A DNA stretch of 45,316 nucleotides from an uncultured bacterium (GCA_905339405.1 CAJPGC010000007.1:91739-137054), one strand, 5' to 3'. Numbered from the stretch's first letter, positions 8,806 through 29,896 are shown. A program made the numbers and translations. The notes: generated from the letters alone by a model not told the origin.

Positions 8806-11800
8806 ATGCGCAATGAATCTGCTGAACGCGGCGTAAGGTCAGGCCTGAGCGCGCTGGCACTGGCGTTAATCTCTGTGCTGTGCCTGTCACAGGCGGCATG
8901 GGCGCTGACGCTGAATGTCGTCGGGCCGGACGGAGAGGCGGTGCCGGGTTACAGGTGGCTACTCGAGGAGGACGCCACGTACCAGGTCTCGCCAGGAACG
9001 CAAGACCCGAATTCGCTCGCTGTAAAGTTCCATACTAGCTATATGCCTGTGGCCGCGAGCGGCGATGAATCGGCGGCGTCGAGCATACCGGTCGACCCGG
9101 AAAAGCCGTACTTCATCTCGGTCCTTCCTGACGGCGGCTATGCTATCGGGGGCGCTTCGGTGAAGCCCGGGCAATCGCAGGCGACAGTGGTAGTCAACAG
9201 GCTGCCGCTGCCCACCGCCCAGATACATGTGCTTGTCTTCGAGGACAACCAGCCCATCAACAACGCCCCGAACGTTCCTGTAGAAAGAGGTCTCGAGGGC
9301 TTTTCGATACTCGTGGCCGACGCGGCCGGCAGGTACGGGCACACGGGCGGCCAGCAGATGATGGACGCCTTCGGCAACCCCTTGGGGACCCGTTATGACG
9401 AAGACGGCAACGTGACCAGCATGGGCAACGGCGTCATAAAGACCGACGCGAACGGCCGCGCGCTCATTAAATATCTTCCTCCCGGCAAATACGGCATAAG
9501 GGCGGTCGCTCCCACGGGGCAGACGTGGATACAGACGAGCACCATAGAGGGCACGAAGACGGTAGATGCGTGGGTCAAGGCGAACGAGCCCACCTTCTTT
9601 ACCGAGTTCGGCCCTCCCGGCCCGCATGTCTCGCTCGGTTTCGTGCAGCCGAACAACGGCGCGGCTTTTCTTACCGGAGGGAAGACCATCACCGGGCGCG
9701 TCGTAAACATGCACCTTTCAGCCGCGCCGTTTACCGTCGGGCAGAGCTTCAACCCCGGGCAGCCTTTCGGCCATACCGTCCCCTGGGTAGGACTTAACGA
9801 GCTTGTAGCCGGAGGTGCGGGCAGGGGGCTTTACGCGCAGCGCGCCAACGACGACGGAACTTTCTCCATACCAAACGTGCCGCCCGGCGACTACCAGCTC
9901 GTGGTTTGGGACGAGCACCTCGACCTCATATTCGCTTTCGCGAACGTCACGGTGGAGGCGGGCTCCGGAGCGCACGCGCTCGGCGACGTGCCTGTATTCC
10001 AGTGGTTCTCCAGGCTCGAGAGCAGGGTCTTTCTCGACAGGAACCAGAACGGCTTCAGGGACTGCGTCACAATGATGTGCGACGACGCGTCCGTTGACGA
10101 CATCGGCATACCCGAGGTGCCTGTAAACCTGCGCTTCAGGGACGGCACCATATACCAGTCTTTCCCGACCGACCTCACGGGTTTCGTTCCTTTCGACGAG
10201 GTCTTCCCGTTCTTCAACTGGCTTATAGCCGAGGTCGATTTCGGCAGGCTCAAGGCAACTGGCGCAACGGCCATCGTCGACGCCGGTGGCCCGGTGAACG
10301 CAGACCAGGGCTGGGATTATCCTTCATGGGACGTATTGACGCCTCAGGCGCAATTCAACGCCGACGGCTCTCCGGCGAACAACGTCAACACCGGAAACAA
10401 CCTTTCGCGGACCGAGACCGGCCCGGTGCTCCTCGAGGCCTTCCAGGGTTTCCTCGGACAGACGAGCGTCATAGAATGGGGAAAGGCCCCTTACGGCCCC
10501 GGTGAGAACGGCGGCATAACCGGCATGGTGCAGTATTCAATAACCAGGGCTGAAAACGACCCGGCCTATGCCGCTGCCGAGCCCTGGGAGCCCGGCATAG
10601 CGAGGGTGCAGGTCAACCTCTACCCAGACATGAACAGGGACAAGAAGATAGACGACCTGAACGAAGACGGCGGGCAGACACTCGCGGACGTTGACAACTA
10701 CCCGTTCGGCTGGAGGGACGACCCTTCGCAGAAGGGCCTTGAGGACGACGACTGGAACGGCAACGGTTCCTTTGACCTCGGTGACGCCCTGCAGGCCGTC
10801 ACCACCGACAGCTTCGACGACAACCCGCCTTCCGGGTGCCAGGGCGAGCCGTTCTTCGCCCACGGGCAGGCTACAGACTGCTTTGACGGGCTGCGGAACT
10901 TCAACCAGATAAGGCCGGGCGTCTTCGACGGCGGCTACGCTTTCAACGACGTCGCGACCGGCACCTACATCGTCGAAGCCGTGCCGCCGAGATCTGCGCT
11001 TGGGGCCGCTTACAAGACGGTAAAGGAAGAGGACAAGAACGTGGATTTCGGTGACGAGTACAAGCCGAGCCCGCTCCTGCTGCCTCCGGCTTGCGTGAAC
11101 TACGACGAAAACGAAGGTCAGGGCCACCTCGTGCCTGCCGAGCTCTCTCTCTTTCCCGGTGTTGCGGCCCCTTACGCGGGGAAATACAGGCCTGTTTGCG
11201 ACCGCAAGCAGATATCAGTAATGGAAGGCTTCAACGCGGCCGTGAACTTCGCCATGTTCACCGACGTGCCCGTTGCCGCTCATATAGTGGGCATGGTCCT
11301 CAACGACCTCGCTAACGAGTTCGACCCCAACTCGCCGCAGTTCGGAGAGAAGTTCGCGCCGTCATGGGTGCCGATATCCATAAGGGACTGGACCGGCAGG
11401 GAAGTGACCAGGACCCATACCGACGAATGGGGCTTGTACAACGTGCTCGTGCCTTCGACCTACACGGTAAACATCGCGAACCCTAGCGGAGTCTCGCCGA
11501 ACATGCTCACGGCCTGCATGAACGACCCCGGCCCGGTGCCTGACCCGGCCAATCCCGGTGCGATGATAACCGACCCGTTCTTCAGCAGGCAGTACAGCCA
11601 GTTCTGCTATACGTTCCAGTTCATGCCCGGCACGACGACCTATCTGGACACGCCTGTTCTTCCGATAGCCGCGTTTGCCGGGCCCGGCCAGCACCCGCTC
11701 GACTGCGAGTTCTCCGAGGGCACGCCCAAGATTTACAGCGTGACCGGGCCGAACGGTTCCGGGCCTTACGCTCTCGAAGGCCAGCAGCTTACGATAGTCT

Positions 11801-13860
11801 CAGAGGGCTTTGTGCCGGTCCCGAACCCGTTGTATGACGGCACTCCCGCAACGCAAAAGACCATAAACAGGGACTACGGTTTCGGCAACGTTGCCGGGAC
11901 GGTCTTCATAGGCGGCACGCAGCTCCAGGTCAACAACTGGACGCCAGGGGTCATAACCGCTACGGTCCCTGAAGGCGCCGTAACTGGCGAACTTTCAATA
12001 GTGCGCGGCGACAACGCCAGGGAGACGATAGCCGGGCTTACCGTGACCGTCGGCCCGATTCCCGGGTCAATCATCAGGGTAGGCCAGGGCGGCTCCATAC
12101 AGGCGGCAGTAGACCTCGCGGAGCCAGGCGACCTCGTAATCGTGCCTCCCGGCAACTACGAGGAGCTCGTGCTCATGTGGAAGCCCGTCAAGCTGCAGGG
12201 CTGGGGCCCGGGCTCGGTCACCATCAACGCAGTAAAGAGGCCCGCTGAAAAGCTCCAGCTCTGGTGGGAAAAGCTCGAATCCCTCGTCGCTGCGGGCGCG
12301 GTAGACGTGCTACCTTCGCAGGTTCCCGCGCCAGGGGCCGTCGGCAACATCCTTCCGACCGAAGCGGGTGCCGGAGTGACGGTCGTCGGCAAGAACGCGC
12401 CCGAGTCGGAGGGAGGCTTCGGGCCGAACGTGAAAGCCAGGATAGACGGCTTTACCATCACAGGCAGCGACATAGGCGGCGGCGTCATGATAAACGGCTA
12501 CGCGCCCAACATGGAAGTCAGCAACAACAGGATAATAAACAACGAGGGCATATACGGCGGCGGCATACGCTCCGGCCACACCGCGCTTACGGTCCTGAAC
12601 AACGGCGTCCAGCAATACCAGGACGCCTTCAACGATTCCCTCAACATACATAACAACCACATAACACAGAACTCCGGCAGGATAGGCGGAGGCGGCGGCG
12701 TGACCATAGGCACCGGGACGGACTTCTACCAGGTGACCGGAAACTTCATCTGCGGCAACTTCACCATGGGCGAGGGCGCGGGGGTAAGCCACCTGGGCCT
12801 CAGCGACCAGGGCACCATAGCCCGTAACACCATCATCTTCAACCAGTCGTTCAACCAGGTATTTACGGTCTCAGGCGGCGGCGTCCTCGTCTCGGGCGGC
12901 GCTCCCCTCGGTATAGGCGCCATATCGCCGGGCTCCGGTTCCGTGAAGGTCTACAAGAACCTCATACAGGGCAACCTCGCCGGGGCCGGAGACGGCGGCG
13001 GCATACGCCTCAACCGCGTGAACGGGCAGGACGTGCAGCAGAGCCCGAATACGCCAGAGGCCTGGTACTCGGTAGAGGTGCTCAACAACATCATAACCAA
13101 CAACGGCGCGGGGCTGGCCGGAGGCGGCATATCTCTGCAGGACTCGGCAAGGGTCTTCATCATCCACAATACGATCGCGAACAACGATTCGACCGCTACG
13201 GCCGGAGAGGCGTTCGCGCCCGGCAGCCCTTCCGAGTCTACGCCGCAGCCCGCGGGCATCGTGGCGAGGGCGCACAGCGACACGCTCGCCTCTCTTTTTG
13301 GCACTTACGCGAAGGTCGTTCCATACAAGGAGTTCTCGAACCCTTCGCTCGTAGACAACATCGTCTGGCATAACAGGTCTTTCTACTTCGTGGTCGACTC
13401 CACGCAGACCCCGGCGTTCTACGGCCTGGTGCCAGACCTCGAAGCGGGCCAGCAGCCGGTCTACTGGGACCTCTGGGTCGAAGGCACCGCGACGCAGAAG
13501 TTCCTTGACCCGAGGTACTCCGTCCTCAGCGACAGGACCGGCTATCACACGAGCAACATAACTTCAAACCCGCTCTTCGTGGACGAGTACGTCAACGGCG
13601 CGAGCAACCAGGTGATAATGCCTGAGACGACCACGAGCATACAGGCTCAGCCAGCCTTCGACGAGGGCGGCAACTTCATAGACGTCAGGTTCGGGCCGCT
13701 TACGCTTACCGGCGACTACCATTTGAGGTCAGGGTCGCCCGCGATAAACAGGGGGCTCAACAATCCCTTGAGCACTTTCCCGGAGCTGTCTACTGACTAC
13801 GACGGGCAGAGAAGGCCGAACGGGCTAAGGGTCGATATCGGCGCGGATGAGAGGTACTAG
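8806..13860 (+). CDS. Giant secreted multidomain beta-helix protein
   Basis: The 1684-residue protein starts at ATG 8806 behind a GGAGG site. A Sec signal peptide (residues about 13-34, ending AAWA) is followed by a series of carboxypeptidase-regulatory/SdrD-B-like beta domains, seen as repeats such as GTFSIPNVPPGDYQLVVWDE and LDRNQNGFRD. Asp/Asn-rich calcium-type loops (DMNRDKKIDDLNEDG near 607, DWNGNGSFDLGD near 650) follow. An IPT/TIG-like domain spans about 974-1085. From about 1090 to 1590 lies a right-handed parallel beta-helix with the opening GSIQAAVDLAEPGDLVIVPPGNYEE and many N-N-x-I-x-x-N rungs. The end (GSPAINRG, DIGADE) is typical of such proteins. It is probably an extracellular scaffold or adhesin exported by the T2SS encoded downstream. 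The molecular function is unknown. Confidence 0.75.
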   Translation: MRNESAERGVRSGLSALALALISVLCLSQAAWALTLNVVGPDGEAVPGYRWLLEEDATYQVSPGTQDPNSLAVKFHTSYMPVAASGDESAASSIPVDPEKPYFISVLPDGGYAIGGASVKPGQSQATVVVNRLPLPTAQIHVLVFEDNQPINNAPNVPVERGLEGFSILVADAAGRYGHTGGQQMMDAFGNPLGTRYDEDGNVTSMGNGVIKTDANGRALIKYLPPGKYGIRAVAPTGQTWIQTSTIEGTKTVDAWVKANEPTFFTEFGPPGPHVSLGFVQPNNGAAFLTGGKTITGRVVNMHLSAAPFTVGQSFNPGQPFGHTVPWVGLNELVAGGAGRGLYAQRANDDGTFSIPNVPPGDYQLVVWDEHLDLIFAFANVTVEAGSGAHALGDVPVFQWFSRLESRVFLDRNQNGFRDCVTMMCDDASVDDIGIPEVPVNLRFRDGTIYQSFPTDLTGFVPFDEVFPFFNWLIAEVDFGRLKATGATAIVDAGGPVNADQGWDYPSWDVLTPQAQFNADGSPANNVNTGNNLSRTETGPVLLEAFQGFLGQTSVIEWGKAPYGPGENGGITGMVQYSITRAENDPAYAAAEPWEPGIARVQVNLYPDMNRDKKIDDLNEDGGQTLADVDNYPFGWRDDPSQKGLEDDDWNGNGSFDLGDALQAVTTDSFDDNPPSGCQGEPFFAHGQATDCFDGLRNFNQIRPGVFDGGYAFNDVATGTYIVEAVPPRSALGAAYKTVKEEDKNVDFGDEYKPSPLLLPPACVNYDENEGQGHLVPAELSLFPGVAAPYAGKYRPVCDRKQISVMEGFNAAVNFAMFTDVPVAAHIVGMVLNDLANEFDPNSPQFGEKFAPSWVPISIRDWTGREVTRTHTDEWGLYNVLVPSTYTVNIANPSGVSPNMLTACMNDPGPVPDPANPGAMITDPFFSRQYSQFCYTFQFMPGTTTYLDTPVLPIAAFAGPGQHPLDCEFSEGTPKIYSVTGPNGSGPYALEGQQLTIVSEGFVPVPNPLYDGTPATQKTINRDYGFGNVAGTVFIGGTQLQVNNWTPGVITATVPEGAVTGELSIVRGDNARETIAGLTVTVGPIPGSIIRVGQGGSIQAAVDLAEPGDLVIVPPGNYEELVLMWKPVKLQGWGPGSVTINAVKRPAEKLQLWWEKLESLVAAGAVDVLPSQVPAPGAVGNILPTEAGAGVTVVGKNAPESEGGFGPNVKARIDGFTITGSDIGGGVMINGYAPNMEVSNNRIINNEGIYGGGIRSGHTALTVLNNGVQQYQDAFNDSLNIHNNHITQNSGRIGGGGGVTIGTGTDFYQVTGNFICGNFTMGEGAGVSHLGLSDQGTIARNTIIFNQSFNQVFTVSGGGVLVSGGAPLGIGAISPGSGSVKVYKNLIQGNLAGAGDGGGIRLNRVNGQDVQQSPNTPEAWYSVEVLNNIITNNGAGLAGGGISLQDSARVFIIHNTIANNDSTATAGEAFAPGSPSESTPQPAGIVARAHSDTLASLFGTYAKVVPYKEFSNPSLVDNIVWHNRSFYFVVDSTQTPAFYGLVPDLEAGQQPVYWDLWVEGTATQKFLDPRYSVLSDRTGYHTSNITSNPLFVDEYVNGASNQVIMPETTTSIQAQPAFDEGGNFIDVRFGPLTLTGDYHLRSGSPAINRGLNNPLSTFPELSTDYDGQRRPNGLRVDIGADERY

Positions 13861-13880: not shown

Positions 13881-15107
13881 ATGAAGATTAAGCCTCCTTT
13901 AGTTGCTCTGGCCGCGGCGTCCATACTGGCCCTTTCAGCCGGGGCAGACGCCGCAGTCGAGGTGCAGTGCCCCGGGGACGCTAACGGGGACGCCATACCG
14001 GACAGCGTTGTCAACGGCTCGCCGAACCCGGAGTTCAGGCCCGGGGTCAAATGCATGCACATTACAGCCGGAGACGGCTACATGCGCATGGGTGACGGCA
14101 GGCCGATGTACATATTCGGCTTCAAGGACGTCACGGGCGTGCCGCCGGAGATGGTCATGGACGAGGGTATGCTCGGGGCCTCCATGCCCGCGCCGACTAT
14201 AGCGGTAAACGAGGGCGACCAGTTTTATCTGACCGTAACAAACGTCGGCATGATGAAGAGGCCGGACCTGTTCGACCCGCACTCTGTCCACTGGCATGGG
14301 TTCCCGCAGGCTTCGGCCATTTTCGACGGCGTCCCGGAGTCGTCCATCGTCATAAACATGGGCGCGTCCATCACCTACTTCTACAACGTCGTCGAGCCCG
14401 GCACCTTCATGTACCACTGCCACGTCGAGGCCACCGAGCACATGCAGATGGGAATGCTCGGGAACCTGTACGTGAGGCCCGCTCAGGACAGGCTCGCCAA
14501 CGGGACTTCGCTTTCCGGCTTCACTCACAGGACTGGAAACAAGTACGCCTACAACGACGGCGACGGGTCGACGTACTATGACGTCGACTTCCCGATACAG
14601 ATAGCCTCAATGGACCCCGTCTTCCACGCCGCGAGCGAATCAGTCCAGCCTCTTCCGTTCGCTCTCATGGACGACAAGTACGGCGTGCTCAACGGCAGGG
14701 GCTACCCTGACACCATAAACCCTGCCTCTTTGCCCGCGATGGACGAGAACAATAACAAGGTCTCTCAGCCGGTTTCTTCCCTTGTTACTGCTCGCCAGGG
14801 CCAAAAGGTATTATTGAGGCTCTCGAACCTGAGCGTAACGAGGTTTTTCACAGTAGCCACCACGGGCGTGCCGATGAAGGTCGTCGGAGTCAACGCCAAG
14901 CACTTGAGGAGCTCGGCCGGGCAGAACAACTATTACACCACGAGCTCTCTTAACCTGGGCGGCGGAGAGTCGGTCGACGTCATAGTCGACACCTCGACCC
15001 TCCAGCCGGGGACCTATTTCCTGTACACGACGAACCTCAACTTCCTCAACAACAACGAAGAGGATTTCGGCGGAATAATGACCGAGATCGTCATAACTCC
15101 GGCTTGA
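13881..15107 (+). CDS. Secreted multicopper-oxidase-like protein A (retains HWHG and HCH copper motifs)
   Basis: I choose ATG 13881 rather than 13863 because an AAAGGGGAG site (13866-13874) sits six bases upstream and the product then begins with a clean signal peptide (MKIKPPLVALAAASILALS, cut after ADA). The 408-residue protein has two cupredoxin domains. HSVHWHG (His134, His137, His139) is the L1 copper motif of multicopper oxidases. YHCH followed by EHMQMGM (His179, Cys180, His181, His187, Met188/190/192) supplies type 1 and type 3 ligands. The C-terminal domain has no HxxHxH or second HCH motif, so on its own it lacks a full trinuclear site. It lies in an operon with two more cupredoxin proteins that fill or scaffold the missing parts. 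Metal or phenol oxidation is possible; the substrate is unknown. Confidence 0.8.
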   Translation: MKIKPPLVALAAASILALSAGADAAVEVQCPGDANGDAIPDSVVNGSPNPEFRPGVKCMHITAGDGYMRMGDGRPMYIFGFKDVTGVPPEMVMDEGMLGASMPAPTIAVNEGDQFYLTVTNVGMMKRPDLFDPHSVHWHGFPQASAIFDGVPESSIVINMGASITYFYNVVEPGTFMYHCHVEATEHMQMGMLGNLYVRPAQDRLANGTSLSGFTHRTGNKYAYNDGDGSTYYDVDFPIQIASMDPVFHAASESVQPLPFALMDDKYGVLNGRGYPDTINPASLPAMDENNNKVSQPVSSLVTARQGQKVLLRLSNLSVTRFFTVATTGVPMKVVGVNAKHLRSSAGQNNYYTTSSLNLGGGESVDVIVDTSTLQPGTYFLYTTNLNFLNNNEEDFGGIMTEIVITPA

Positions 15108-15156
15108 GGCAGTGATGGATTTCAGTTTCAGCAACCTTGATAAAGGGAGAAAAGCC

Positions 15157-16467
15157 ATGCGAAAAGGTTTTTTGTCGGTTTTCGGCTTTGCGCTCCTGGC
15201 TCTGGCGTCGTTTATCGCCGGGACAGCCGAGGCAGTGATACACGGGGTGAACGGGCCGGTGTTCAACCTGACGGCGAAAGAAGGCAGGGTCGTCACGGGA
15301 GACGGCAACAGCATCTACTCCTGGGGCTACGCCAACGGCAACGGCCCGATGCAGTACCCGGGGGTGACGATGATAGTCGAGCAGGGCGCACTCGTCACGG
15401 TGAACCTCGTAAACCGGCTTCCAGTGCCGGTATCAATCGTGTTCCCGGGCCAGGCCCAGGTGAGCGCGGTAGGCGGAGCGCCCGGCGTAATGACGAGGGA
15501 AGCCAGGCCCGGCGAGACGGTCACTTACAGGTTCACCGCCGAAGAAGCGGGCACCTACCTCTACCACAGCGCGACCAGGCCCGAGCTCCAGGTTGAGATG
15601 GGGCTTGTGGGCGCTCTCATCGTGCGACCCTCCGGCTTTAACGGGGCCGCTCCCACGGCGTACGGCCACATCGATACCGCCTACGACAGGGAGACGCTCT
15701 TTCTCTTGACTGAGATGGACTCGAGGATACACGAAGCAATCGAGATGCAGGGGATAGACGCGCTCGCGAACACAAACTTCCTGACCCGTTATTTCCCTAA
15801 TTACTGGTTCATAAACGGCAGGAACGCCCCTGACACAATGGCCCCGGCCTTTGTAGGGTGGCTTCCCAACCAGCCGTATAACAGCATGCCTGTGATGCAG
15901 CCCGGCGAAAGGCTCCTCATGAGGGTCATCTCAGGCGGCAGGGACCTTCACCCCTTCCATTACCACGGCAACCACGCGAAGGTCATAGCGAAGGACGGCC
16001 GCCTTCTCCAGAGCGCCGCAGGCTTGGGGCCCGACATAGGGCCCGAGCTTTTCACCATACAGGCGGTGCCGGGAGAGACTTACGACGCCATATTCCAATG
16101 GACGGGCAAGGGCCTCGGCTGGGACATCTACGGGACCGGGCCCGGCTACGAGCATGAGTGCATGGACGATAGCGGAGACGGCTACGACGACGTGACGATG
16201 GAGTGGTGCGCCGACCACGGCAAGGAGTTTCCGGTCCTCCTCCCGGACGTAAGCGACCTTACATTCGGCGGCTTCTACTCCGGCAGCCCTTTCATGGGCG
16301 CGCTCGAATCCTTGCCCCCGGGGCAGGGCGGGCTCAACCCGGCTGGCGGCTTCACCTTCATGTGGCATTCGCATACCGAAAAGGAGATGACCAATTACGA
16401 CATCTTCCCCGGAGGCCTGATGACAATGCTCATCATCCAGCCGCCCGGCGCGCCGGTAATGGAGTAG
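15157..16467 (+). CDS. Secreted multicopper-oxidase-like protein B (retains HPFHYHG and HSH; no type 1 Cys)
   Basis: The true start is probably ATG 15157, six bases after AAAGGGAGA (15142-15150), giving the signal peptide MRKGFLSVFGFALLALASF and cleavage after AEA. The 436-residue protein has a first cupredoxin domain in which the copper residues are replaced (PVSIVFPG for HWHG, YHSATRPELQVEMG for the HCH motif). The last domain keeps HPFHYHGNH (His265, His268, His270), the L3 motif, and WHSHTEKEM (His404, Ser405, His406), where Ser replaces the type 1 Cys. It therefore offers trinuclear-cluster ligands but no blue-copper site of its own. A Cys pair lies near ECMDD...EWCADHG. It complements protein A, whose motifs are the missing half. 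Confidence 0.8.
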   Translation: MRKGFLSVFGFALLALASFIAGTAEAVIHGVNGPVFNLTAKEGRVVTGDGNSIYSWGYANGNGPMQYPGVTMIVEQGALVTVNLVNRLPVPVSIVFPGQAQVSAVGGAPGVMTREARPGETVTYRFTAEEAGTYLYHSATRPELQVEMGLVGALIVRPSGFNGAAPTAYGHIDTAYDRETLFLLTEMDSRIHEAIEMQGIDALANTNFLTRYFPNYWFINGRNAPDTMAPAFVGWLPNQPYNSMPVMQPGERLLMRVISGGRDLHPFHYHGNHAKVIAKDGRLLQSAAGLGPDIGPELFTIQAVPGETYDAIFQWTGKGLGWDIYGTGPGYEHECMDDSGDGYDDVTMEWCADHGKEFPVLLPDVSDLTFGGFYSGSPFMGALESLPPGQGGLNPAGGFTFMWHSHTEKEMTNYDIFPGGLMTMLIIQPPGAPVME

Positions 16468-16475
16468 GGGGGACA

Positions 16476-19148
16476 ATGACAAAAAAACTCTCGTTCATAT
16501 CATTATCAGCAGGCCTCATTACGCTGCTAGCCGCAGCGCCGTCTTCTGCCTTCGACGTGTATTTGTCCGCGAAGCAGTTCACGAAGCCTCTGCCCGACGG
16601 CGCCGAGGTAGTCATGTGGGGCTTCGCTGCCGACCAGGACGGCGACCTCGGCACGGACGCCGGGGAAGCCCCGAGCTCGCCCGGGCCGATGATAACGGTG
16701 CCTCCCGGAGAGGGGACGCTCAACATCCACCTGAGGAACGACCTCGGCGTGCCGGTCTCACTGGTGATACCGGCCCTTTCGACGCCGCTTTCGCCTGTGA
16801 GGTTCACCGACGGCCAGGGCAGGTCGAGGGTGCAGTCATTTACGGCCGAGACAGCCCCGGGGGAGACGCGCACGTATTCCTGGAGCGTCCGTCCCGGCAG
16901 CTTCATCTATCACAGCGGCACGCACCTTCCCGTCCAGGTCCCAATGGGGCTTTACGGCGGAGTCAAAAAAGACGCTGCCGAAGGACAGGCGTACTCGAGG
17001 AACGACACAGCCTACCAGAACGAAGTCCTTCTTTTCTACAGCGAGATAGACCCGGCCCTCAACGCGGCGGTGACCTCTGGCGTCTATGGGACCGCAGAGT
17101 ACCCCGGCACCATCGCGTACGACCCGAAGTACTTCCTCGTGAACGGAGAACCTTATACCGCCGCGACGGCGCCTTTACAGGCAGGGGAGCCTGACGAGGC
17201 AACCCTTTTGAGGTTTTTCAACGCCGGAGTAGATTCGCACACCATCGTCACGCAGGGGCTGTACATGAAGCTCCTTTCGGAGGACGGGAACCTGTATCCT
17301 TTCCCGAAGGAGCAGTACTCGGCCCTGCTTCCGGCCTCGAAGACCGCGGAAGCGCTGGTAAGGCCAGGGGCCGGCGGCGATTATCCCGTCTACGACAGGA
17401 GACTTTTCCTCGTCAACAACGGCACCTCCCCCGGCGGGATCTTCTCCCTTTTGAGGGTTTCGGGCCCTCTTTACGCAGCTGACGACGGCTACACCGTGGA
17501 GCAGGATTCGCTTCTTTCCGTCCCGGTTCCCGGCGTATGCGCGAACGATACCGTCACGGCGGGGACTTCAGCCTCGGTTTTGACGCAGACGGCAAACGGC
17601 TCTCTCCAGTTCAACGCCGACTGCTCGTTCACATATACCCCGGCAGCCGGTTTCTTCGGTTTCGACTCGTTCGATTACCGGCTTACGTCCGGCGCTGTGC
17701 AGAGCAATACCGCGAACGTGACCATAACGGTGGCACAGGCTGCCCAGGTGCCTGTGGCAAACGGCGATACGTACTCCACGCCCGAGGACATACCTTTGAA
17801 CGTCGCAGCACCGGGCGTGCTCGGCAACGATACGTCGCTCGGGGCGGAGCCGAGAGCGGTTCTGGTGTCGTTACCGGCAAACGGCATGGTCTCATTGAAC
17901 GCGTCCGGTTCTTTCTCGTATTCGCCTGACGCGCAGTTCAACGGGAACGATTCTTTCAGCTACAAGATAGTCTCAGACGGCCAGGAGAGCGGAACGGCGG
18001 AAGTGAACATCGCGGTTGCGCCAGTAAACGACCTGCCTTCGGCCGTCAACGACGCTGTCTCAACTCCCAAGAACGCCGCCGTCGTCATAAACGTGCTAGC
18101 TAACGACAGCGACGTCGAAGGAAGCGCACTCAGCGTTACGGCCGTGAGCGCGCCGTCAAAAGGGACAGTTGTCATAAACGGCGCAGCGACTGTCACGTAT
18201 ACTCCTTCGGCCGATTACGTCGGCCTCGACACGTTCACGTACACGATAACCGACGGGGAAGGTTTCGCTGAGGCGTCTGTTTCCGTCAACGTGACGCAGA
18301 CCCCGACAGCCGTGAACGATAATTACTCCATAAACGAGGATTCAAGCCTTGTAGTGCCTTCCCCTGGCGTGCTGCAGAACGACATAACACTGGGCGAGAA
18401 CCCGGCGGCGGCGCTTGTCTCGGGCCCCTCGAACGGCACGGTCGAGTTCGCGGGAGACGGAGCGGTCAACTACGTTCCGAACGGAAACTTCTTCGGCGTC
18501 GATACGTTCGTCTACAACTTCACTTCAGGCGGCGTCCAGAGCAATTCCGCTACCGTCTCTATCACCGTCAACCCGGTGAACGACGCCCCGGCCGCGACGT
18601 ACGACACCGCGAGCACGGCCTTCAACACCGCCGCCCTGATAAACGCACTCGCCAATGACGTCGACCCGGATGGAGATGCACTGAGAATAGCCGCGGTAAC
18701 GGGCGCGCCGACGAACGGGTCTGTAATCATCAACCCGGACAATACCTTCACGTACACGCCTAACACTGGCTTCAGCGGCACTGACAGGTTCTATTACACC
18801 GCTACCGACAATACGGTGACGAGCAACGTCGGGCGCGTCGTTGTGACCGTCAGGGCCAACCAGCAGCCGGTATCGGTCATAGATTACGCTGAAACGCGCG
18901 TCAACACGCAGGTTGTAATAGACCTGGCAGCCAACGACTACGACCCTGACGGGACTATCGTGAGGAGCACTCTTTCCGTACTGACGGCACCGGGAAGGGG
19001 CGGCAGCGTAGTCAACAACGGGGATGGGACAGTGAGCTTCACCCCGCTTGCGGGCTTCGTTGGTTCCGATTACTTCTACTACAGCATAAAAGACAACTAC
19101 GGACTGACTTCGAGGAGCGCAAAAGTCACCGTGAAGGTCGTAAGGTAA
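16476..19148 (+). CDS. Cupredoxin-like secreted protein C with six tandem-95-type repeats
   Basis: An AGGGGGG site precedes ATG 16476; the frame is open further upstream, but that part overlaps protein B and lacks a signal peptide. The 890-residue protein has the signal peptide MTKKLSFISLSAGLITLLA (ending SSAF), then two cupredoxin-like domains to about residue 330. They align by eye with protein B, but all copper ligands are lost (PVSLVIPA, YHSGTHLPVQVPMG, DSHTIVTQG). From about residue 332 follow six Ig-like/cadherin-like repeats of roughly 90 residues. Each opens with a xxxDxYxTxED-type strand, then GVLxND or VLANDxD, then a FxGxDxFxYxI/T strand pair: the tandem-95 repeat pattern. They probably bind calcium and project the domain from the surface or matrix. 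The likely role is structural partner or anchor for proteins A and B. Confidence 0.75.
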   Translation: MTKKLSFISLSAGLITLLAAAPSSAFDVYLSAKQFTKPLPDGAEVVMWGFAADQDGDLGTDAGEAPSSPGPMITVPPGEGTLNIHLRNDLGVPVSLVIPALSTPLSPVRFTDGQGRSRVQSFTAETAPGETRTYSWSVRPGSFIYHSGTHLPVQVPMGLYGGVKKDAAEGQAYSRNDTAYQNEVLLFYSEIDPALNAAVTSGVYGTAEYPGTIAYDPKYFLVNGEPYTAATAPLQAGEPDEATLLRFFNAGVDSHTIVTQGLYMKLLSEDGNLYPFPKEQYSALLPASKTAEALVRPGAGGDYPVYDRRLFLVNNGTSPGGIFSLLRVSGPLYAADDGYTVEQDSLLSVPVPGVCANDTVTAGTSASVLTQTANGSLQFNADCSFTYTPAAGFFGFDSFDYRLTSGAVQSNTANVTITVAQAAQVPVANGDTYSTPEDIPLNVAAPGVLGNDTSLGAEPRAVLVSLPANGMVSLNASGSFSYSPDAQFNGNDSFSYKIVSDGQESGTAEVNIAVAPVNDLPSAVNDAVSTPKNAAVVINVLANDSDVEGSALSVTAVSAPSKGTVVINGAATVTYTPSADYVGLDTFTYTITDGEGFAEASVSVNVTQTPTAVNDNYSINEDSSLVVPSPGVLQNDITLGENPAAALVSGPSNGTVEFAGDGAVNYVPNGNFFGVDTFVYNFTSGGVQSNSATVSITVNPVNDAPAATYDTASTAFNTAALINALANDVDPDGDALRIAAVTGAPTNGSVIINPDNTFTYTPNTGFSGTDRFYYTATDNTVTSNVGRVVVTVRANQQPVSVIDYAETRVNTQVVIDLAANDYDPDGTIVRSTLSVLTAPGRGGSVVNNGDGTVSFTPLAGFVGSDYFYYSIKDNYGLTSRSAKVTVKVVR

Positions 19149-19159
19149 GGAGGCCTGTT

Positions 19160-19609
19160 TTGTACGGACGCGTTCTGCTACTCATCCTGCTGGCGTTCGC
19201 GCCGGTCCTGGTCCAGGGCTGTTCTCTGAAGGCCGGGACCGGCGTCCGCTCCGGCGGTGAAATGGTCTCGATAGAAGACAGGTGGGGAATAAAGGTCGAG
19301 GGCTTGAGACTCACGGCTGAAGGTTATATGTGCGACTTCAGGTTCAGGGTGATAGACGCAGCGAAGGCCGCCCCTCTTCTCAGCCGGAAAAACCCAGCAT
19401 CTCTCCTGAACGAGGATTCCGGGATGCTGACCCATGTCCCGGTAACGCCTAAAGTCGGGCCGCTACGCCAGACGGTGAAGCTCGGTAAACCGGCCGAGGG
19501 CAGGACCTACTTCATCTTTTTCGCGAACCCCGGCAAACTCATCAAGCCCGGCACCAAGGCCACCGTCTCAATTGGTGAATTCGTAATGCCGGGCCTTGTT
19601 GTTCAATGA
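19160..19609 (+). CDS. Small secreted lipoprotein of unknown function
   Basis: The product has 149 residues. Translation probably starts at TTG 19160, six bases after a strong AAGGAGG site (19147-19153). The N-terminus is a lipoprotein signal: a hydrophobic run VLLLILLAFAPVL, then VQGC, with Cys21 as the lipid-modified residue. The rest is beta-rich (SIEDRWGIKVEGLRLTAEGY, CDFRFRVID, RTYFIFFANPGKLIKPG) and ends in VSIGEFVMPGLVVQ. I recognise no family. It lies between the cupredoxin genes and the protease, 11 bases after the former and overlapping the permissive upstream region of the latter. It may help assemble, or deliver copper to, the secreted oxidase proteins; that is only an inference from position. 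Confidence 0.6.
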   Translation: MYGRVLLLILLAFAPVLVQGCSLKAGTGVRSGGEMVSIEDRWGIKVEGLRLTAEGYMCDFRFRVIDAAKAAPLLSRKNPASLLNEDSGMLTHVPVTPKVGPLRQTVKLGKPAEGRTYFIFFANPGKLIKPGTKATVSIGEFVMPGLVVQ

Positions 19610-19622
19610 GGTTTTTTTGAAG

Positions 19623-21782
19623 ATGATAATGCGTACTCTCCTTTTCGCTGCCATACCTGCCGCTTTCATGCTGTTTGCAGGCCTTCATGGCCCGGTTGAA
19701 GCTGCCGAGGTAAGCCCGGCCCTCTTTGAAGCCGCTCAAGAGCTCGCCCCCGGCGAAAAGCTCCCAGTGATAGTGCGTTTCAGCGCACCTTCGGACACAG
19801 AGGCGCCCTCCCGTGCCGACAGGCGAAGGAGGGAGAAGATAATATCGAAGCTCAAGTCAAGGATGCAGGATTCGGTCGGGAGCATCTCCGAGCTTCTCGC
19901 CAGGAGGAAAGCGGCGCACAGGGCCCTCTGGATAATCAACGGTATATCAGTGAAGGCCGACGCCGCGATGCTCGAGGCATTGTCGAAACATCCCAGGGTC
20001 GCCGCGGTAACGCTCGACGCCGAGCTGCCCGGCCCCGGAGTGAGCTACGGCGGGCAGGGTACCCCAGAGTGGAACGTCTCGATGGTCGAAGCCCCTGAGC
20101 TCTGGTCGATGGACATAGACGGTTCTGGCGCGGTAGTGGCTTCGATGGACACTGGCGTTGATTTCAACCACCCAGACCTCAACGGGTCATGGAGGGGAGG
20201 GACGAACAGCTGGTATGACCCGTACGGCGAGCACCCGTACCCTCATGACGCCAACGGCCACGGGACTATGATAATGGGCATAATGACCGGCGCTGGCAGC
20301 GGCGGGACGTCCATTGGGGTGGCCCCGGGCGCCAAATGGATATCAGCGAAGATATTCAAGGACAACGGCTACGCCTCCTTGAGCGCCATACACCTCGGCT
20401 TTCAATGGCTCCTCGACCCTGACGGAAACCCTGCTACCGACGACGCGCCTGCGGTCGTGAACAACTCGTGGGGGCTCGGCAACCTCGACGGCTGCTCCAC
20501 GGAATTCTCCCAGGACATACAGGTATTGAGCGACGCAGGGATAATGACAGTCTTCGCTGCTGGCAACTACGGCCCGAACCAGTACACGAGCACGAGCCCG
20601 GCGAACGGGCCTGTCCCGTTGTCTGTCGGCGCTCTCGACAACCTCGGCAACCTCGCGGGCTTCAGCTCGCGCGGGCCTTCCGCCTGCGGCGGGTCCATCT
20701 ACCCGCTTATTTCAGCCCCCGGGGCCGACATAAGGACGTCAGACCTGACTTACGGAGGCGCGATACCGCTCTCCTATTCAATCGTCTCCGGCACTTCTTT
20801 CGCATCTGCCCATGTGAGCGGGGCTTTGGCCCTGCTTTCGAGCGCTTTTCCCGAGGCCGGGGCCGGGAAGCTCGCAGGCGCGCTTCTCTCAACTGCCCAT
20901 GACCTCGGGCAGACAGGGGCTGACAACGGCTATGGTTCCGGACTCATAAAGCTTAATGCCGCCTACGACCTCCTCGCTGGGCATACTCCTCCCGGCTCTG
21001 AGCCAATAACAGACCTTGACGGCGACGGTGCCTCTGCCGAGGCAGACTGCGACGACAACGACCCGGCCGTGTACCCCGGAGCTGGCGAAGTCAAGTTCGA
21101 CGGCATAGACCAGGACTGCAACGGGTACGACCTTACCATAAACATCACCCGCGCGACGTACAGCGACACTTACAGGAGCCTCAGGATAGAGGCGAAAAGC
21201 TCGCTCGGCGCAGACGCCGCCCTTAACGCCGACGGCTACGGCCCCATGAACTGGAGCTCGAACCTGAACAAATGGGTGCTTACGGTAAGAACGCCTTCAA
21301 TGCCGGCGGAAGTCACTGTCTCAGGGGTAGAGGGCGTCGATACTCTTTCTTTGTCGCCGCCGGAACCTCAACCAGTTCCGGAGCCCGAGCCTTTGCCCGT
21401 GCCGGTCCCTGAGCCTGACCCGGAACCAATGGCCGACCATGACAATGACGGCTTCCCGTCTGTGGATGATTGCAATGACAACGACCCTGCAATAAACCCA
21501 GGGGCCATTGAAATCAGGTTCGACGGCATCGACCAGGACTGCAACGGCTACGACCTTACCATAAACATCACCCGCTCCAGCTATAGCGCGGCATACAAGA
21601 GCCTGAGGATAGAAGTGAAAAGTTCCCTCGGTGAAGGAGCTAAGCTTCAGGCCGAAGGTTTCGGCCCCATGAGCTGGAGCGTCAACCTTAAAAAATGGGT
21701 GCTCACGGTGAGGACGCCTTTCATGCCGGACGCTGTCATTGTCACAGGCGTAGAAGGCTCAACAAGCGCCCCGGTAATGTGA
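19623..21782 (+). CDS. Secreted subtilisin-like (S8) protease with two MopE-type metal-binding motifs
   Basis: I choose ATG 19623 (TGAGG at 19607-19611 upstream); TTG 19617 and TTG 19596 are in-frame alternatives. The 719-residue protein has a signal peptide (RTLLFAAIPAAFMLFAG), an I9-like propeptide (EKLPVIVRFSAP to AVTLDAEL), and an S8 catalytic domain with Asp176 (SMDTGVDFNHPD), His213 (NGHGTMIMG), the oxyanion Asn in FAAGN, and Ser392 (SGTSFASAH). After residue about 455 come two copies of a C-terminal unit. Each has a DxDGDG..DCDDNDPAVYPGA..FDGIDQDCNG motif, the pattern named for MopE (PF11617), followed by a roughly 65-residue beta module that begins YDLTINITR. A Pro-Glu-rich linker joins them. 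It is likely exported and may process the co-encoded secreted proteins. Confidence 0.88.
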   Translation: MIMRTLLFAAIPAAFMLFAGLHGPVEAAEVSPALFEAAQELAPGEKLPVIVRFSAPSDTEAPSRADRRRREKIISKLKSRMQDSVGSISELLARRKAAHRALWIINGISVKADAAMLEALSKHPRVAAVTLDAELPGPGVSYGGQGTPEWNVSMVEAPELWSMDIDGSGAVVASMDTGVDFNHPDLNGSWRGGTNSWYDPYGEHPYPHDANGHGTMIMGIMTGAGSGGTSIGVAPGAKWISAKIFKDNGYASLSAIHLGFQWLLDPDGNPATDDAPAVVNNSWGLGNLDGCSTEFSQDIQVLSDAGIMTVFAAGNYGPNQYTSTSPANGPVPLSVGALDNLGNLAGFSSRGPSACGGSIYPLISAPGADIRTSDLTYGGAIPLSYSIVSGTSFASAHVSGALALLSSAFPEAGAGKLAGALLSTAHDLGQTGADNGYGSGLIKLNAAYDLLAGHTPPGSEPITDLDGDGASAEADCDDNDPAVYPGAGEVKFDGIDQDCNGYDLTINITRATYSDTYRSLRIEAKSSLGADAALNADGYGPMNWSSNLNKWVLTVRTPSMPAEVTVSGVEGVDTLSLSPPEPQPVPEPEPLPVPVPEPDPEPMADHDNDGFPSVDDCNDNDPAINPGAIEIRFDGIDQDCNGYDLTINITRSSYSAAYKSLRIEVKSSLGEGAKLQAEGFGPMSWSVNLKKWVLTVRTPFMPDAVIVTGVEGSTSAPVM

Positions 21783-21784
21783 TT

Positions 21785-23467
21785 ATGAATTGGAAGCGCA
21801 TAGGAGAGGTCCTCGGATCTTTGGCGGCCGTCGGAGCGGACGACTTGAAGGCCGCCATGGAAGAGCAGAACGCCACTGGCGAGCTTCTGGGCGAGGTGCT
21901 CGTAAGAAGAGGGCGCGTATCTCCCCAAGAGGTCGTGAGGGCGCTTGCAACGCAGCTCGGAATAGAAGAGGTGATCGCCGGGAGCTTTCCGGAGGAGCCG
22001 GTCTGCCTCCCTGACAAGCTCTCGCCGCTGTTTCTGAAACACAATTCTATCGTGCCGCTCGCTGTAGCGGACGGCTCTCTCAAGGTCGCGATGGCAAGGC
22101 CGCAGGACCCGTGGCCGGCCGAGGCCCTGCGCGCCTTCACGGGGCTGAGCGTCAAAAGGGCCGTTGCCACCGAGTCAGACGTGCAGGAGGCCATAGCAAG
22201 GCTCTATGACGGCCGCAAGGACCTGGGAAGCATAATAGAGGGGATGGACGTAAAAGACGCCGAAGTCAGCGGCAACGAGGTGGAAAGCCTCAAGGAGGCC
22301 GCTCTCGAGGCTCCCGTCATAAACCTCGTCAACATAATCATCCAGCGCGCTATAGAGAAAAGGGCGAGCGACATCCACATAGAGCCTTTCGAAAATTCTC
22401 TTAAAGTCAGGTACAGGGTAGACGGCATACTTTATCTATCCGAAAGCCTGCCCAGAAAGCTGCAGCCCGTCGTAGCCTCGAGGATAAAGCTCATGGCAAG
22501 GCTGAACATCGCCGAGAGGAGGCTGCCGCAGGACGGGAGGATAGCGTTCGGCCAGAAGGGCGCGGAGGTCGACATAAGGGTCTCGACAATCCCGACCCTT
22601 TTCGGCGAGAGCGTCGTCATGAGGCTCCTTGACCAAAAGGGCGTCCTCACGATGAAGGCACTGGGGTTTTCTGGCAGGACCATGGAGGCCTTCTCGCGCC
22701 TCATCCGCCAGCCCCACGGCATGCTCCTTGTGACGGGGCCAACGGGCAGCGGCAAATCGACTACGCTTTACGCCGCGCTTTCCGCGATAGACAGCTCCGC
22801 TAAAAAGGTCGTCACGATAGAAGACCCTGTCGAGTACAACATCGAGGGGGTCAACCAGATACAGACGAAGGCCCAGATAGGCTTCACCTTCGCCAACGGC
22901 CTGCGTTCGATAGTAAGGCAGGACCCGGACGTCATCATGGTGGGAGAGATAAGGGACGCGGAGACGGCCGGGATAGCGATACATTCCGCTTTGACCGGGC
23001 ACCTCATATTCTCTTCGCTTCATACTAATGACGCGCCGGGGGCCGCTGCAAGACTCATCGACATGGGCGTGGAAGGCTACCTCATCTCCTCGAGCCTCCT
23101 GGGCGTGCTGGCCCAGCGCCTCGTGCGGGTGGTCTGCGCCAACTGCAAAATATCCTATGCGCCGTCCAAAAGGGAAAAAGACCTGCTCTCCTCCGCCGGG
23201 CTCTGCCCGCCGTCCAGTTTTCAGCTTTACAATGGTGCGGGTTGTGAAGAGTGCGGCGGGACGGGCTATGCCGGGCGCACAGGCATATTCGAGTTGATGC
23301 TGATGACCGACAACCTGAGGACGCTCGTCTCCGAGCGCAAGGGGTCAAGCATCATAAAGGCTGCCGCGCTCGAGGAAGGCATGATCGAACTCAGGGGCGA
23401 CGGTCTTAAGAAGGCATTGGACGGTATTACAACCATTGAAGAGGTCGAGCGCGTAACCGTCGATTGA
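21785..23467 (+). CDS. gspE: Type II secretion ATPase GspE
   Basis: ATG 21785 follows the protease stop by two bases. No clear ribosome site is seen, so coupling is likely. The 560-residue protein has the N1E domain (GELLGEVLVRRGRVSPQEVVRAL), the N2 domain with ASDIHIEPFE, Walker A GPTGSGKST (about residue 318), the Asp box, Walker B-type GEIRDAETA, the His box ALTGHLIFSSLHTNDA, and a C-terminal four-cysteine zinc module (CANC and CEECGGTGY) followed by RTGIFELM. This is the complete GspE/PilB layout. The presence of GspF to GspD downstream argues for T2SS rather than type IV pili. It drives pseudopilus assembly from the cytoplasmic face of the inner membrane. Confidence 0.95.
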   Translation: MNWKRIGEVLGSLAAVGADDLKAAMEEQNATGELLGEVLVRRGRVSPQEVVRALATQLGIEEVIAGSFPEEPVCLPDKLSPLFLKHNSIVPLAVADGSLKVAMARPQDPWPAEALRAFTGLSVKRAVATESDVQEAIARLYDGRKDLGSIIEGMDVKDAEVSGNEVESLKEAALEAPVINLVNIIIQRAIEKRASDIHIEPFENSLKVRYRVDGILYLSESLPRKLQPVVASRIKLMARLNIAERRLPQDGRIAFGQKGAEVDIRVSTIPTLFGESVVMRLLDQKGVLTMKALGFSGRTMEAFSRLIRQPHGMLLVTGPTGSGKSTTLYAALSAIDSSAKKVVTIEDPVEYNIEGVNQIQTKAQIGFTFANGLRSIVRQDPDVIMVGEIRDAETAGIAIHSALTGHLIFSSLHTNDAPGAAARLIDMGVEGYLISSSLLGVLAQRLVRVVCANCKISYAPSKREKDLLSSAGLCPPSSFQLYNGAGCEECGGTGYAGRTGIFELMLMTDNLRTLVSERKGSSIIKAAALEEGMIELRGDGLKKALDGITTIEEVERVTVD

Positions 23468-23475
23468 ACAGATAG

Positions 23476-24693
23476 ATGGCGATCTTCAACTACATAGCGC
23501 TGGACCCTTCAGGAGTTGAGGTGAAGGGAAAGCTGGACGCTCCTGACGAGAAGACGCTTGCCGCGGTCCTCAGGTCAAGGGGCGTCTACCTGATGGAGGT
23601 CAAAAAGGCAGGGGACGGGGCAAGCCGGGGCGCCAGAAAACTTTTCCGGCGGCGCTCAAAGGTAACAGCCGCAGAGGTAGCGATCTTCACCTGCCAGCTT
23701 TCAAGCCTCCTCGAGGCCGGAGTGCCGCTCGACAAGGCCGTCTCTATACTCTCAGGGCTAGCCGAAGGTGCGCCATTGAGGGAGCTACTTGAGGGCATGT
23801 CAGCAGGCATACAGGGTGGCAGGTCTTTCGCGGACTGCCTCGCGGGCCACCCCGGCGTCTTCCCGGAGATATACGTCAACACGGTGAGGGCCGGGGAAGC
23901 AGGGGGAGGGCTTGACGCAGCGCTTACCCGGATGAACTCCTATCTGGAAGAGTCCGCAAGAATAAAGGACGAGGTCACCTCAGCGCTTATCTACCCGCTC
24001 ATCCTCGCAGTCCTTGGCGGCGGGGCCGTCGTATTCATGCTCGTCTTCGTGGTGCCCAGGTTCGCGGCCGTCTTCGAGGACCTGGGCGGAGCCGTGCCCA
24101 CGCCCGCGAAAATCCTGATGGCCGCCAGCCACGTCACCTCCCGTTATTTCTGGATAGCCCCCGTCATCTCAGCCGGCATCTGGGCATTCGTGAAAAAAAT
24201 AGGCGGCACGCCTGAAGGAAGGCTCAGGCTCGACGGGATGAAGCTCAGGGCACCGGTCATAGGACCTCTTCTGCGTAAATCCGCCATAGCGAGGTTTGCG
24301 AGGACGCTCGGCACGCTCCTCAAGTCCGGAATACAAATACTCGAAGCCCTCGCGCTCTCGGCCAGGGCCGCCGGAAACACGGCGCTCGAAAAGGAGCTGG
24401 GGCCCGTGATGGACGGCGTAAGAAAGGGCAGGGGTGTGGCCCGGCCCATAGCGGAATCAGGCGCGTTCCCCGTGCTTGCCGTCCATATGCTGACGGTCGG
24501 GGAGGAGACGGGAAGGCTCGATGAGATGCTCTTGAAGCTCGCGGGCGGCTACGAGCACGAAGTCAGGACGTCGCTCAAGCGGCTCATGGCGGCCCTTGAG
24601 CCTGCGATAATAATGCTCATGGCCCTGGTGGTCGGCTTCATCGTCATATCCCTGCTGCTGGCGGTCTTCAGCCTCAACGAGATATCCCTTTAA
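23476..24693 (+). CDS. gspF: Type II secretion inner-membrane platform protein GspF
   Basis: The 405-residue protein has two T2SSF domains (about 75-195 and 275-395), each with the F-T-C-Q-L-S / FARTLGTLLKSG type start, and three membrane segments near residues 170-192, 215-235 and 370-395. The N-terminal YIALDPSGVEVKGKLDAPD and the P-[RK]-F-A turn after the first membrane helix are characteristic of GspF. It forms the platform that couples GspE to pseudopilin extraction. It starts eight bases after gspE and is followed by a strong AAAGGAGG site for gspG. Confidence 0.95.
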   Translation: MAIFNYIALDPSGVEVKGKLDAPDEKTLAAVLRSRGVYLMEVKKAGDGASRGARKLFRRRSKVTAAEVAIFTCQLSSLLEAGVPLDKAVSILSGLAEGAPLRELLEGMSAGIQGGRSFADCLAGHPGVFPEIYVNTVRAGEAGGGLDAALTRMNSYLEESARIKDEVTSALIYPLILAVLGGGAVVFMLVFVVPRFAAVFEDLGGAVPTPAKILMAASHVTSRYFWIAPVISAGIWAFVKKIGGTPEGRLRLDGMKLRAPVIGPLLRKSAIARFARTLGTLLKSGIQILEALALSARAAGNTALEKELGPVMDGVRKGRGVARPIAESGAFPVLAVHMLTVGEETGRLDEMLLKLAGGYEHEVRTSLKRLMAALEPAIIMLMALVVGFIVISLLLAVFSLNEISL

Positions 24694-24704
24694 AGGAGGG
24701 CACA

Positions 24705-25142
24705 ATGCGACGGAATAACGCGCTCCGCGACGAGCGCGCCTTCACTCTTATCGAGCTTATCGTGGTAGTCCTCATCATCGGGCTTCTTGCGGCCCTTGTC
24801 GCGCCCAAGTTCTTCGGCAAAGTGGAAGAGTCGAGGATAAAAGCAGCACAGGCACAGATAGAGCTTTTCGGCGGGGCCCTCGACCAGTTCAGGCTCGACG
24901 TGGGGCGCTACCCTTCGACGTCAGAGGGGCTCTCCGCGCTGCGGGTCGAGGCCGCAGGGGTAGAGAACTGGCGCGGCCCGTACATTAAAAAAGAGATCCC
25001 GAAAGACCCGTGGGGAAGGGAGTTCGCGTACACTTCCCCGGGCGAGCACGACGATTACGACATAGTCTCTCTAGGGGCCGACAACATGGCCGGAGGCGAA
25101 GGCGAGGCAAGGGACATCGTGAGCTGGAGGGGGCTTGAGTGA
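24705..25142 (+). CDS. gspG: Major pseudopilin GspG
   Basis: The 145-residue protein has a short basic leader and the type IV pilin motif FTLIELIVVVLIIGLLAALVAPKFFGK; prepilin peptidase would cut before the Phe. The residue before the cut is Ala (DERA) instead of the usual Gly, which is tolerated by some peptidases but uncommon. The C-terminal part has GRYPSTSEGLSAL, GPYIKKEIPKDPWG and the calcium-site region (GEHDDYDIVSLGAD) of GspG. AAAGGAGGGCACA before ATG 24705 is one of the best ribosome sites in the operon, fitting the need for a high dose of the major pseudopilin. No prepilin peptidase gene (gspO) is in the window. Confidence 0.95.
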   Translation: MRRNNALRDERAFTLIELIVVVLIIGLLAALVAPKFFGKVEESRIKAAQAQIELFGGALDQFRLDVGRYPSTSEGLSALRVEAAGVENWRGPYIKKEIPKDPWGREFAYTSPGEHDDYDIVSLGADNMAGGEGEARDIVSWRGLE

Positions 25143-25563
25143 CACCGGAAGAGGGCTGGCCGGGTATACGCTCTTCGAGCTCCTGGTGGTGCTGGCCATA
25201 ATCTCCGCGGCTTCCGCGATAGCTCTTCCGGCTGTAAGCTCCGGCTTCGGCTCGCTTAACGCCAGGAGCGCTGCCTTGCGCATAAGTGCTGCAATGATGG
25301 ATGCCAGGGAGAAGGCAATGCGCTCAAGAAGCGTTATTTACGCCGAGGCTTCAGGGAAGGCGCTCGTAATAAGAACAGCCGAGGGCCGGGTCGTGAAGGA
25401 GCTGCCCTTTTCGGGCGGACTTACGCTCGACTCCGGCCGCGCGATATCGTTTTCTCCCGGCGGGTTTTCAAGCGGCGGGGAAATAAAGGTGCTTTCAGAC
25501 AAGGCCGGTTATAGCGTCGTTGTCACTGCATCCGGGAGGCCGAGGATAGAGGCTGTAAAGTGA
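25135..25563 (+). CDS. gspH: Minor pseudopilin GspH
   Basis: The 142-residue protein begins with a ten-residue leader and the pilin motif GYTLFELLVVLAIISAASAIALPAV. Glu at +5 of the mature form is kept. The remainder is beta-rich (RSVIYAEASGKALVIRTAEGRVV, LTLDSGRAISFSPGGFSSGG), as in GspH/FimT-like proteins. It probably uses TTG 25135, which overlaps the gspG end by eight bases behind GGAGGGGG. The position between gspG and gspI supports the name. The sequence itself is weakly conserved, as is usual for GspH. Confidence 0.8.
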   Translation: MSDTGRGLAGYTLFELLVVLAIISAASAIALPAVSSGFGSLNARSAALRISAAMMDAREKAMRSRSVIYAEASGKALVIRTAEGRVVKELPFSGGLTLDSGRAISFSPGGFSSGGEIKVLSDKAGYSVVVTASGRPRIEAVK

Positions 25564-25907
25564 GTTCCAGCGAGAGCGGCTTTTCACTGCTTGAAGTCAT
25601 GGCGGCAATCGCTGTGCTCGGCTTTACGGTCGCGGCCCTCCTTAAGCTGGCGTCTGTCGGGCTTACACTCGCAAAAGACGTGCGTGAGACAACCGCGCTC
25701 GTGGCGGCAGCCGACGGGCAACTCAGGGCCGCTGTTTCCGGCGGCCCGCTGGAAGAGAGACCTTCCTCAAAAGAGGGTCTCGAGTGCGATGTAGAATCTG
25801 TTCCGTATGAGGGCGACGAGGTGCGAGATCTCATGAAGATAACAGTCACAGCAAGAGACAAGGCGTCAGGCGCTTCGTATACGCTTACCACCTTGAAAGA
25901 GCGGTGA
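25560..25907 (+). CDS. gspI: Minor pseudopilin GspI
   Basis: The 115-residue protein has a short leader and GFSLLEVMAAIAVLGFTVAALLKLAS, the prepilin cleavage and membrane helix with Glu5. Its length and the position between gspH and gspJ are as expected for GspI. Start is GTG 25560 on a GTGA overlap with the gspH stop. The C-terminal half (DVESVPYEGDEVRDLMKITVTARDK) is the short beta-sheet that would pair with GspJ and GspK at the pseudopilus tip. Confidence 0.8.
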   Translation: MSSSESGFSLLEVMAAIAVLGFTVAALLKLASVGLTLAKDVRETTALVAAADGQLRAAVSGGPLEERPSSKEGLECDVESVPYEGDEVRDLMKITVTARDKASGASYTLTTLKER

Positions 25908-29286: not shown

Positions 29287-29293
29287 CACCTCG

Positions 29294-29887: not shown

Positions 29888-29896
29888 GGGAATGTA

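Follow-up and report, generated by a model that had tools for sequence, protein, structure and literature searches.

Three neighboring genes in a 45,316-nt stretch of DNA from an uncultured bacterium (GCA_905339405.1, CAJPGC010000007.1:91739-137054; hereafter the window) encode secreted relatives of multicopper oxidases, here called A, B, and C, and the copper ligands of one oxidase site are divided between A and B. All coordinates are counted from the first letter of the window, and statements about the window refer to its full length. Judged by the distribution of these ligands, activity probably belongs to a mixed complex, not to any one of the three proteins. We consider it quite likely that A, B, and C represent a type C homotrimer that was duplicated and divided its labor, giving an A-B-C ring whose single active site lies between A and B. 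The three genes are as follows.

13881..15107, + strand: A, a predicted two-domain cupredoxin protein with all copper ligands in domain 1 and none in domain 2
15157..16467, + strand: B, a predicted two-domain cupredoxin protein with ligands in domain 2 and the domain 1 ligands lost (VSIVFPG, HSAT)
16476..19148, + strand: C, a predicted ligand-free two-domain cupredoxin framework (first ~345 amino acids [aa]) followed by six tandem-95/cadherin-like repeats

An open reading frame (ORF) check of the window found A, B, and C to be intact, codirectional, and closely spaced ORFs of 408, 436, and 890 aa, each with a signal-peptide-like hydrophobic N terminus. Pfam Cu-oxidase models match all three above the cutoff, and Cu-oxidase_3, which is found in each of them, matched nothing else in a scan of the 2.65-Mb genome. 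Coordinates, signal-like starts, and Pfam matches thus agree with the initial annotation, which was made from the sequence alone and placed three secreted Cu-oxidase-like proteins at 13881-19148. Matches to Pfam and PDB profiles cover both halves of A, B, and C, and it is these profiles that suggest two cupredoxin domains in each protein.

The top solved-structure matches of the A and B profiles are 3g5w and 2zwn, both of the type C class, whose type 1 copper lies in the first domain; the C profile also finds two-domain multicopper oxidases. Two-domain enzymes are trimers in which the trinuclear cluster is held by residues of two protomers, and their types A, B, and C are defined by the location of the type 1 copper (PMC13151041). 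We aligned A, B, and C with 2zwn and with three complete type C enzymes from related genomes, and two alignment methods agree on the result. A has all eight domain 1 ligands of 2zwn (His57, His60, His62, His104, Cys105, His106, His112, and Met118) and no domain 2 ligand, B has the full domain 2 ligand set and has lost the domain 1 set, and C has neither, in keeping with its earlier description as a cupredoxin framework without ligands. In A domain 1, the type 1 ligands are H134, C180, H187, and M192 and the trinuclear ligands are H137, H139, H179, and H181; B domain 2 contributes H265 and the trinuclear ligands H268, H270, H404, and H406. Because A domain 1 and B domain 2 cover all of the ligand columns, together they amount to exactly one type C subunit. 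The eight trinuclear histidines never occur in one chain, four being in A domain 1 and four in B domain 2, and the type 1 set of His, Cys, His, and Met in domain 1 is present in A only (35 of 35 sequences) and in neither B nor C.

The residue numbers given by the initial annotation were right (A His134, His137, His139, His179, and His181; B His265, His268, His270, His404, and His406), and its reading of the motifs needs partial revision. A does contain HSVHWHG and the type 1 set, but the statement that it has no HxxHxH was mistaken, since HSVHWHG is itself HxxHxH; what is missing is the domain 2 motif pair. For B, the loss of the domain 1 set and the retention of the domain 2 histidines hold, but Ser405 had been taken for a lost type 1 Cys. 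The position of Ser405 aligns with the Asp of the type C HDH motif, so there is no ground for that view.

The family occurs, in a scan of one-per-species genomes, in metagenome-assembled genomes (MAGs) labeled Deltaproteobacteria, Desulfobulbus, Acidobacteria, and Planctomycetes, and the ligand split is the same across several phyla. All eight A ligands are invariant in each of the 35 A sequences with domain 1 present, as are His265, His268, His270, His404, His406, and Ser405 in all 37 B sequences. At the positions of the HxxHxH histidines, domain 1 of those 37 B proteins has Val/Thr/Ser/Ala, Val/Leu/Ile, and Pro, and in 14 of them a His persists at one position of the former HCH motif; the ligand positions of A domain 2 are mostly Thr, Ala, and Tyr. 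Outside the motifs, conservation of a histidine at 90% or more is limited to A His249, B His192, and B His354, and no histidine of C reaches 90%. On these alignments, the division of ligands is far beyond chance and does not look like decay, because complementary halves kept across phyla are not what degenerating duplicates would leave. The sequences counted here are not fully independent, since several of the loci are from draft MAGs and a few of the genomes have two clusters. As side observations, the invariant B His354 (DHGK) is in domain 2, and the same domain has an insertion (window positions 16160 to 16240) with a Cys-flanked, calcium-loop-like stretch, CMDDSGDGYDD...C.

A, B, and C belong to a larger block, whose other genes, together with those that follow it, are listed here.

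8806..13860, + strand: BIG, a 1684-aa secreted protein with SdrD_B, carboxypeptidase-regulatory-like/polysaccharide-lyase-4-domain-II-like, and beta-helix-like regions; the first gene of the block
19160..19609, + strand: a small conserved gene of 149 aa with a lipobox-like start, after C in nearly all related loci
19596..21782, + strand: a subtilase (Peptidase_S8) carrying two MopE-type motifs for metal binding; many loci, though not every one, have it as the last gene of the block
21782..31966, + strand: type II secretion genes gspE, F, G, H, J, K, PilN/L-like, M, and D, directly downstream of the block

Complete loci have the order BIG-A-B-C-lipoprotein, mostly followed by the subtilase, and this order is the same in Desulfobacterota-like, Acidobacteria, and Planctomycetes loci. 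Wherever the contig is long enough, A is upstream and C is downstream of B. In the window's phylum, B was found in 13 of 297 genomes and A in the identical 13, with 14 copies of each; the phylum of an Acidobacteria locus (L008) also gave the cluster in 13 of 297 genomes. A second phylum draw, via genome G345, yielded essentially the set of genomes already covered and added nothing. A plasmid collection gave the cluster from the Cupriavidus metallidurans CH34 megaplasmid and from Paraburkholderia; identity is about 39 to 40%, the gene order is A-B-[C fused to BIG]-G149, and the ligands are split in the same way. In another locus (L104:5857-12726), BIG, two cadherin-like repeats, and A are fused in one 2290-residue frame. 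These C-BIG and BIG-A fusions imply that A, B, C, and BIG function together. In a phylogenetic tree, A, B, and C each form one fully supported clade, and C groups with B. The type II secretion system (T2SS) genes are a likely export route; their adjacency is seen only in close relatives, and the more distant loci with scanned neighbors are without them. The subtilase may process or release secreted proteins of the block. A sigma-54 promoter upstream of the block, an idea suggested by neighboring sigma-54 activators, was rejected as a general feature, with two close matches in 27 loci.

Taken together, type C complementarity, invariance across phyla, co-occurrence, the gene block, and the fusions to BIG strongly support the earlier proposal that A and B jointly provide one type 1 and trinuclear site. 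The role of C as a partner devoid of ligands is supported as well. We infer the complex, its stoichiometry, its copper content, and its O2 chemistry, and the substrate is a guess. The ancestor would have been a type C two-domain multicopper oxidase, a ring of three identical subunits with each trinuclear cluster held where domain 1 of a subunit meets domain 2 of the next. After duplication, A would have retained the function of domain 1 (the type 1 copper and four trinuclear histidines), B that of domain 2 (the remaining four), and C the framework alone. The product would be a secreted 1:1:1 A-B-C heterotrimer, with six cupredoxin domains in a ring in a ceruloplasmin-like layout. The interface between B domain 2 and A domain 1 would hold the one working site, and the other two interfaces would be silent. 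This ring would be anchored to the large adhesin-like BIG and would probably act at the cell surface or outside the cell. There the type 1 copper on A would be reduced by a donor, for which extracellular Fe(II) or some other metal or mineral is plausible. By analogy with all multicopper oxidases, the electrons would then move along the His-Cys-His bridge (Cys180 with His179 and His181) to the shared cluster, which would be the place of O2 reduction.

Several observations weigh against this model or limit it. A fusion of A to B was sought in the related loci, and none was found. Two long B frames in genome G580 (878 and 1109 aa) had been candidates, and they were rejected because the frames are open past the gene and A is in a different frame. 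Since the gene block is inherited as a unit, co-occurrence alone is no proof of contact between the proteins, and because the tree is unrooted, it does not show an ancestor exclusive to A, B, and C, apart from other two-domain enzymes. The B domain 2 motif, HSHTEKEMTN, is more changed than the corresponding HDHVDVHVTN is among complete type C enzymes. Single-chain structure predictions from shallow alignments were too poor for use, with mean predicted local distance difference test (pLDDT) values of 42 for A and 40 for B. Finally, genome G236, which is 98% complete and carries the cluster (locus L060), has neither a heme-copper nor a bd oxidase that we could find, and O2 as the oxidant is therefore not assured in every host. 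The window's own genome gave several matches to heme-copper oxidases and, away from the cluster, SCO1-like genes, which make a supply of O2 and copper plausible, and SCO1-type copper chaperones are present in all six genomes tested.

A, B, and C could instead be separate extracellular copper proteins, with A as a type 1 (blue copper) carrier, B as a copper-binding or delivery protein, C as a scaffold, and no trinuclear cluster. A by itself does have a full type 1 site. However, this explanation does not account for the invariance of four extra histidines in A domain 1 and four matching histidines in B domain 2, and A and B are never seen apart; we regard it as improbable. It would likewise be surprising if the proteins did not form an O2-reducing oxidase but reduced metals outside the cell or served in attachment, the roles proposed for Geobacter OmpB. 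All eight trinuclear histidines are kept, and trinuclear histidines in the multicopper oxidase superfamily serve O2 reduction; heme-copper oxidase subunits are also encoded in the window's own genome. Genome G236, with its lack of heme-copper and bd oxidase matches, would fit such a role, as would the requirement of OmpB for Fe(III) oxide reduction (PMC5566968), whereas a distant version of the cluster in Sideroxydans lithotrophicus ES-1 rises during magnetite oxidation (PMC12016527).

The shape of the complex is a separate question, on which an alternative would keep the same A/B site. Here, A and B would form a heterodimer or a hexamer on BIG, and C would be a surface-attachment subunit outside the ring. 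The C-BIG fusion in Burkholderiales-type loci, the adhesin-like repeats on the window's C, and the A-BIG fusion in L104 are compatible with this arrangement. We think it possible but rather unlikely, because C still has its two predicted cupredoxin domains and the tree places it with B, both of which would fit a third ring member. The A-B-C ring with a single A/B site remains the model that we prefer.

Known multicopper oxidases, trimeric ones included, are each encoded by one gene. If the model is true, the block would be a clear natural case of a homo-oligomeric active site divided among paralogues, and expression of any one gene alone should fail. Annotation would be affected, because each gene alone looks either canonical or degenerate, and a cluster tied by proteomics to solid iron mineral oxidation would gain a concrete, testable activity. 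More tentatively, these loci could represent a widespread, previously unrecognized class in which an O2-reducing site is obligately built from two gene products, in a heterotrimeric ring on a giant surface protein, with electrons from extracellular metals or minerals.

Three observations on other loci stand apart from this argument. In G236, a di-haem cytochrome c peroxidase-like gene (L060:3203-4696) adjoins the cluster. In a Planctomycetes locus (L010:1668-4091), A is fused behind a PAP2/vanadium-haloperoxidase-like domain, on weak Pfam matches. Six locus pairs from related orders (L017/L034, L018/L037, L021/L038, L023/L032, L024/L035, and L025/L036) have, ~2 kb away from a complete two-domain multicopper oxidase, another Cu-oxidase-like ORF of 316 to 353 aa that is essentially without a copper motif, and such paired ORFs could mark a separate route to mixed multicopper oxidase complexes.

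Among known systems, copper nitrite reductase (NirK) was rejected as an assignment. The scores of A and B against TIGR02376 (NCBIfam) are 35.6 and 48.8 versus a cutoff of 296.3, B domain 2 has two His pairs instead of the single NirK-type domain 2 His, and a NirK-like homotrimer of A is ruled out by A domain 2, which lacks histidines at the positions required. A search for split or heteromeric multicopper oxidases returned only papers that mention heterodimeric laccases, mostly fungal by title; the small subunit of such laccases is not known to be an oxidase. No report of a divided multicopper oxidase site was found in the open-access literature, a scope that leaves out most subscription journals. 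The initial annotation had likened A, B, and C to MnxEFG of Bacillus, which proves to be a poor analogue. MnxEFG is a multisubunit multicopper oxidase that needs partners, but MnxG alone is the multicopper oxidase and a division of the trinuclear site is not described; MnxE and MnxF are ~12-kDa proteins that form an E3F3 hexamer and have no similarity to characterized proteins (PMC5622069). In the window, no subunit is complete, and A, B, and C all have two-domain frameworks of about 345 to 440 aa. OmpB (Geobacter) and MofA (Leptothrix) are also secreted, metal-linked multicopper oxidases, but they are single proteins; T2SS genes adjoin the window's cluster.

The nearest published locus, judged from gene order, domains, and named relatives and not from sequences, is Slit_1812-1818 of S. 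lithotrophicus ES-1, an organism in which He et al. (2017) described three tandem extracellular multicopper oxidase genes (PMC5566968). In a 2025 study, magnetite gave a higher abundance of the Slit_1812-1818 products than Fe(II)-citrate did; Slit_1816 is larger, with adhesin and polysaccharide-lyase-like domains, Slit_1817 and Slit_1818 are said to carry canonical multicopper oxidase motifs with no divided site reported, and Burkholderiales and Anaeromyxobacter are named as relatives (PMC12016527). The published link to solid Fe(II) is limited to this distant version of the cluster (PMC12016527). Domain content and gene order agree with the Burkholderiales loci, so synteny would make Slit_1818 the counterpart of A, Slit_1817 that of B, and Slit_1816 that of C-BIG. 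A, B, C, and BIG share with this cluster its three adjacent cupredoxin genes and its adhesin/polysaccharide-lyase-like domains, which are joined to one of those genes in the Slit-type cluster, whereas BIG and C are separate genes in the window and a subtilase is present. Adjacent SCO1/SenC or cytochrome genes, another Slit-type trait, were not recognized among the scanned neighbors in the window; SCO1 is near the CH34 cluster, and cytochrome c is near the Paraburkholderia cluster.

The type C enzymes themselves (mgLAC, 2zwn; the Nitrosomonas europaea blue copper oxidase, 3g5w) have the two-domain layout, the domain 1 type 1 site, and the ligand columns in common with A and B combined. The known members differ in that a single gene encodes all of the ligands in one chain, whereas no chain in the window has the full set. 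As a whole, the initial interpretation is partly supported, and a divided homotrimer of the type C two-domain class is the better model.
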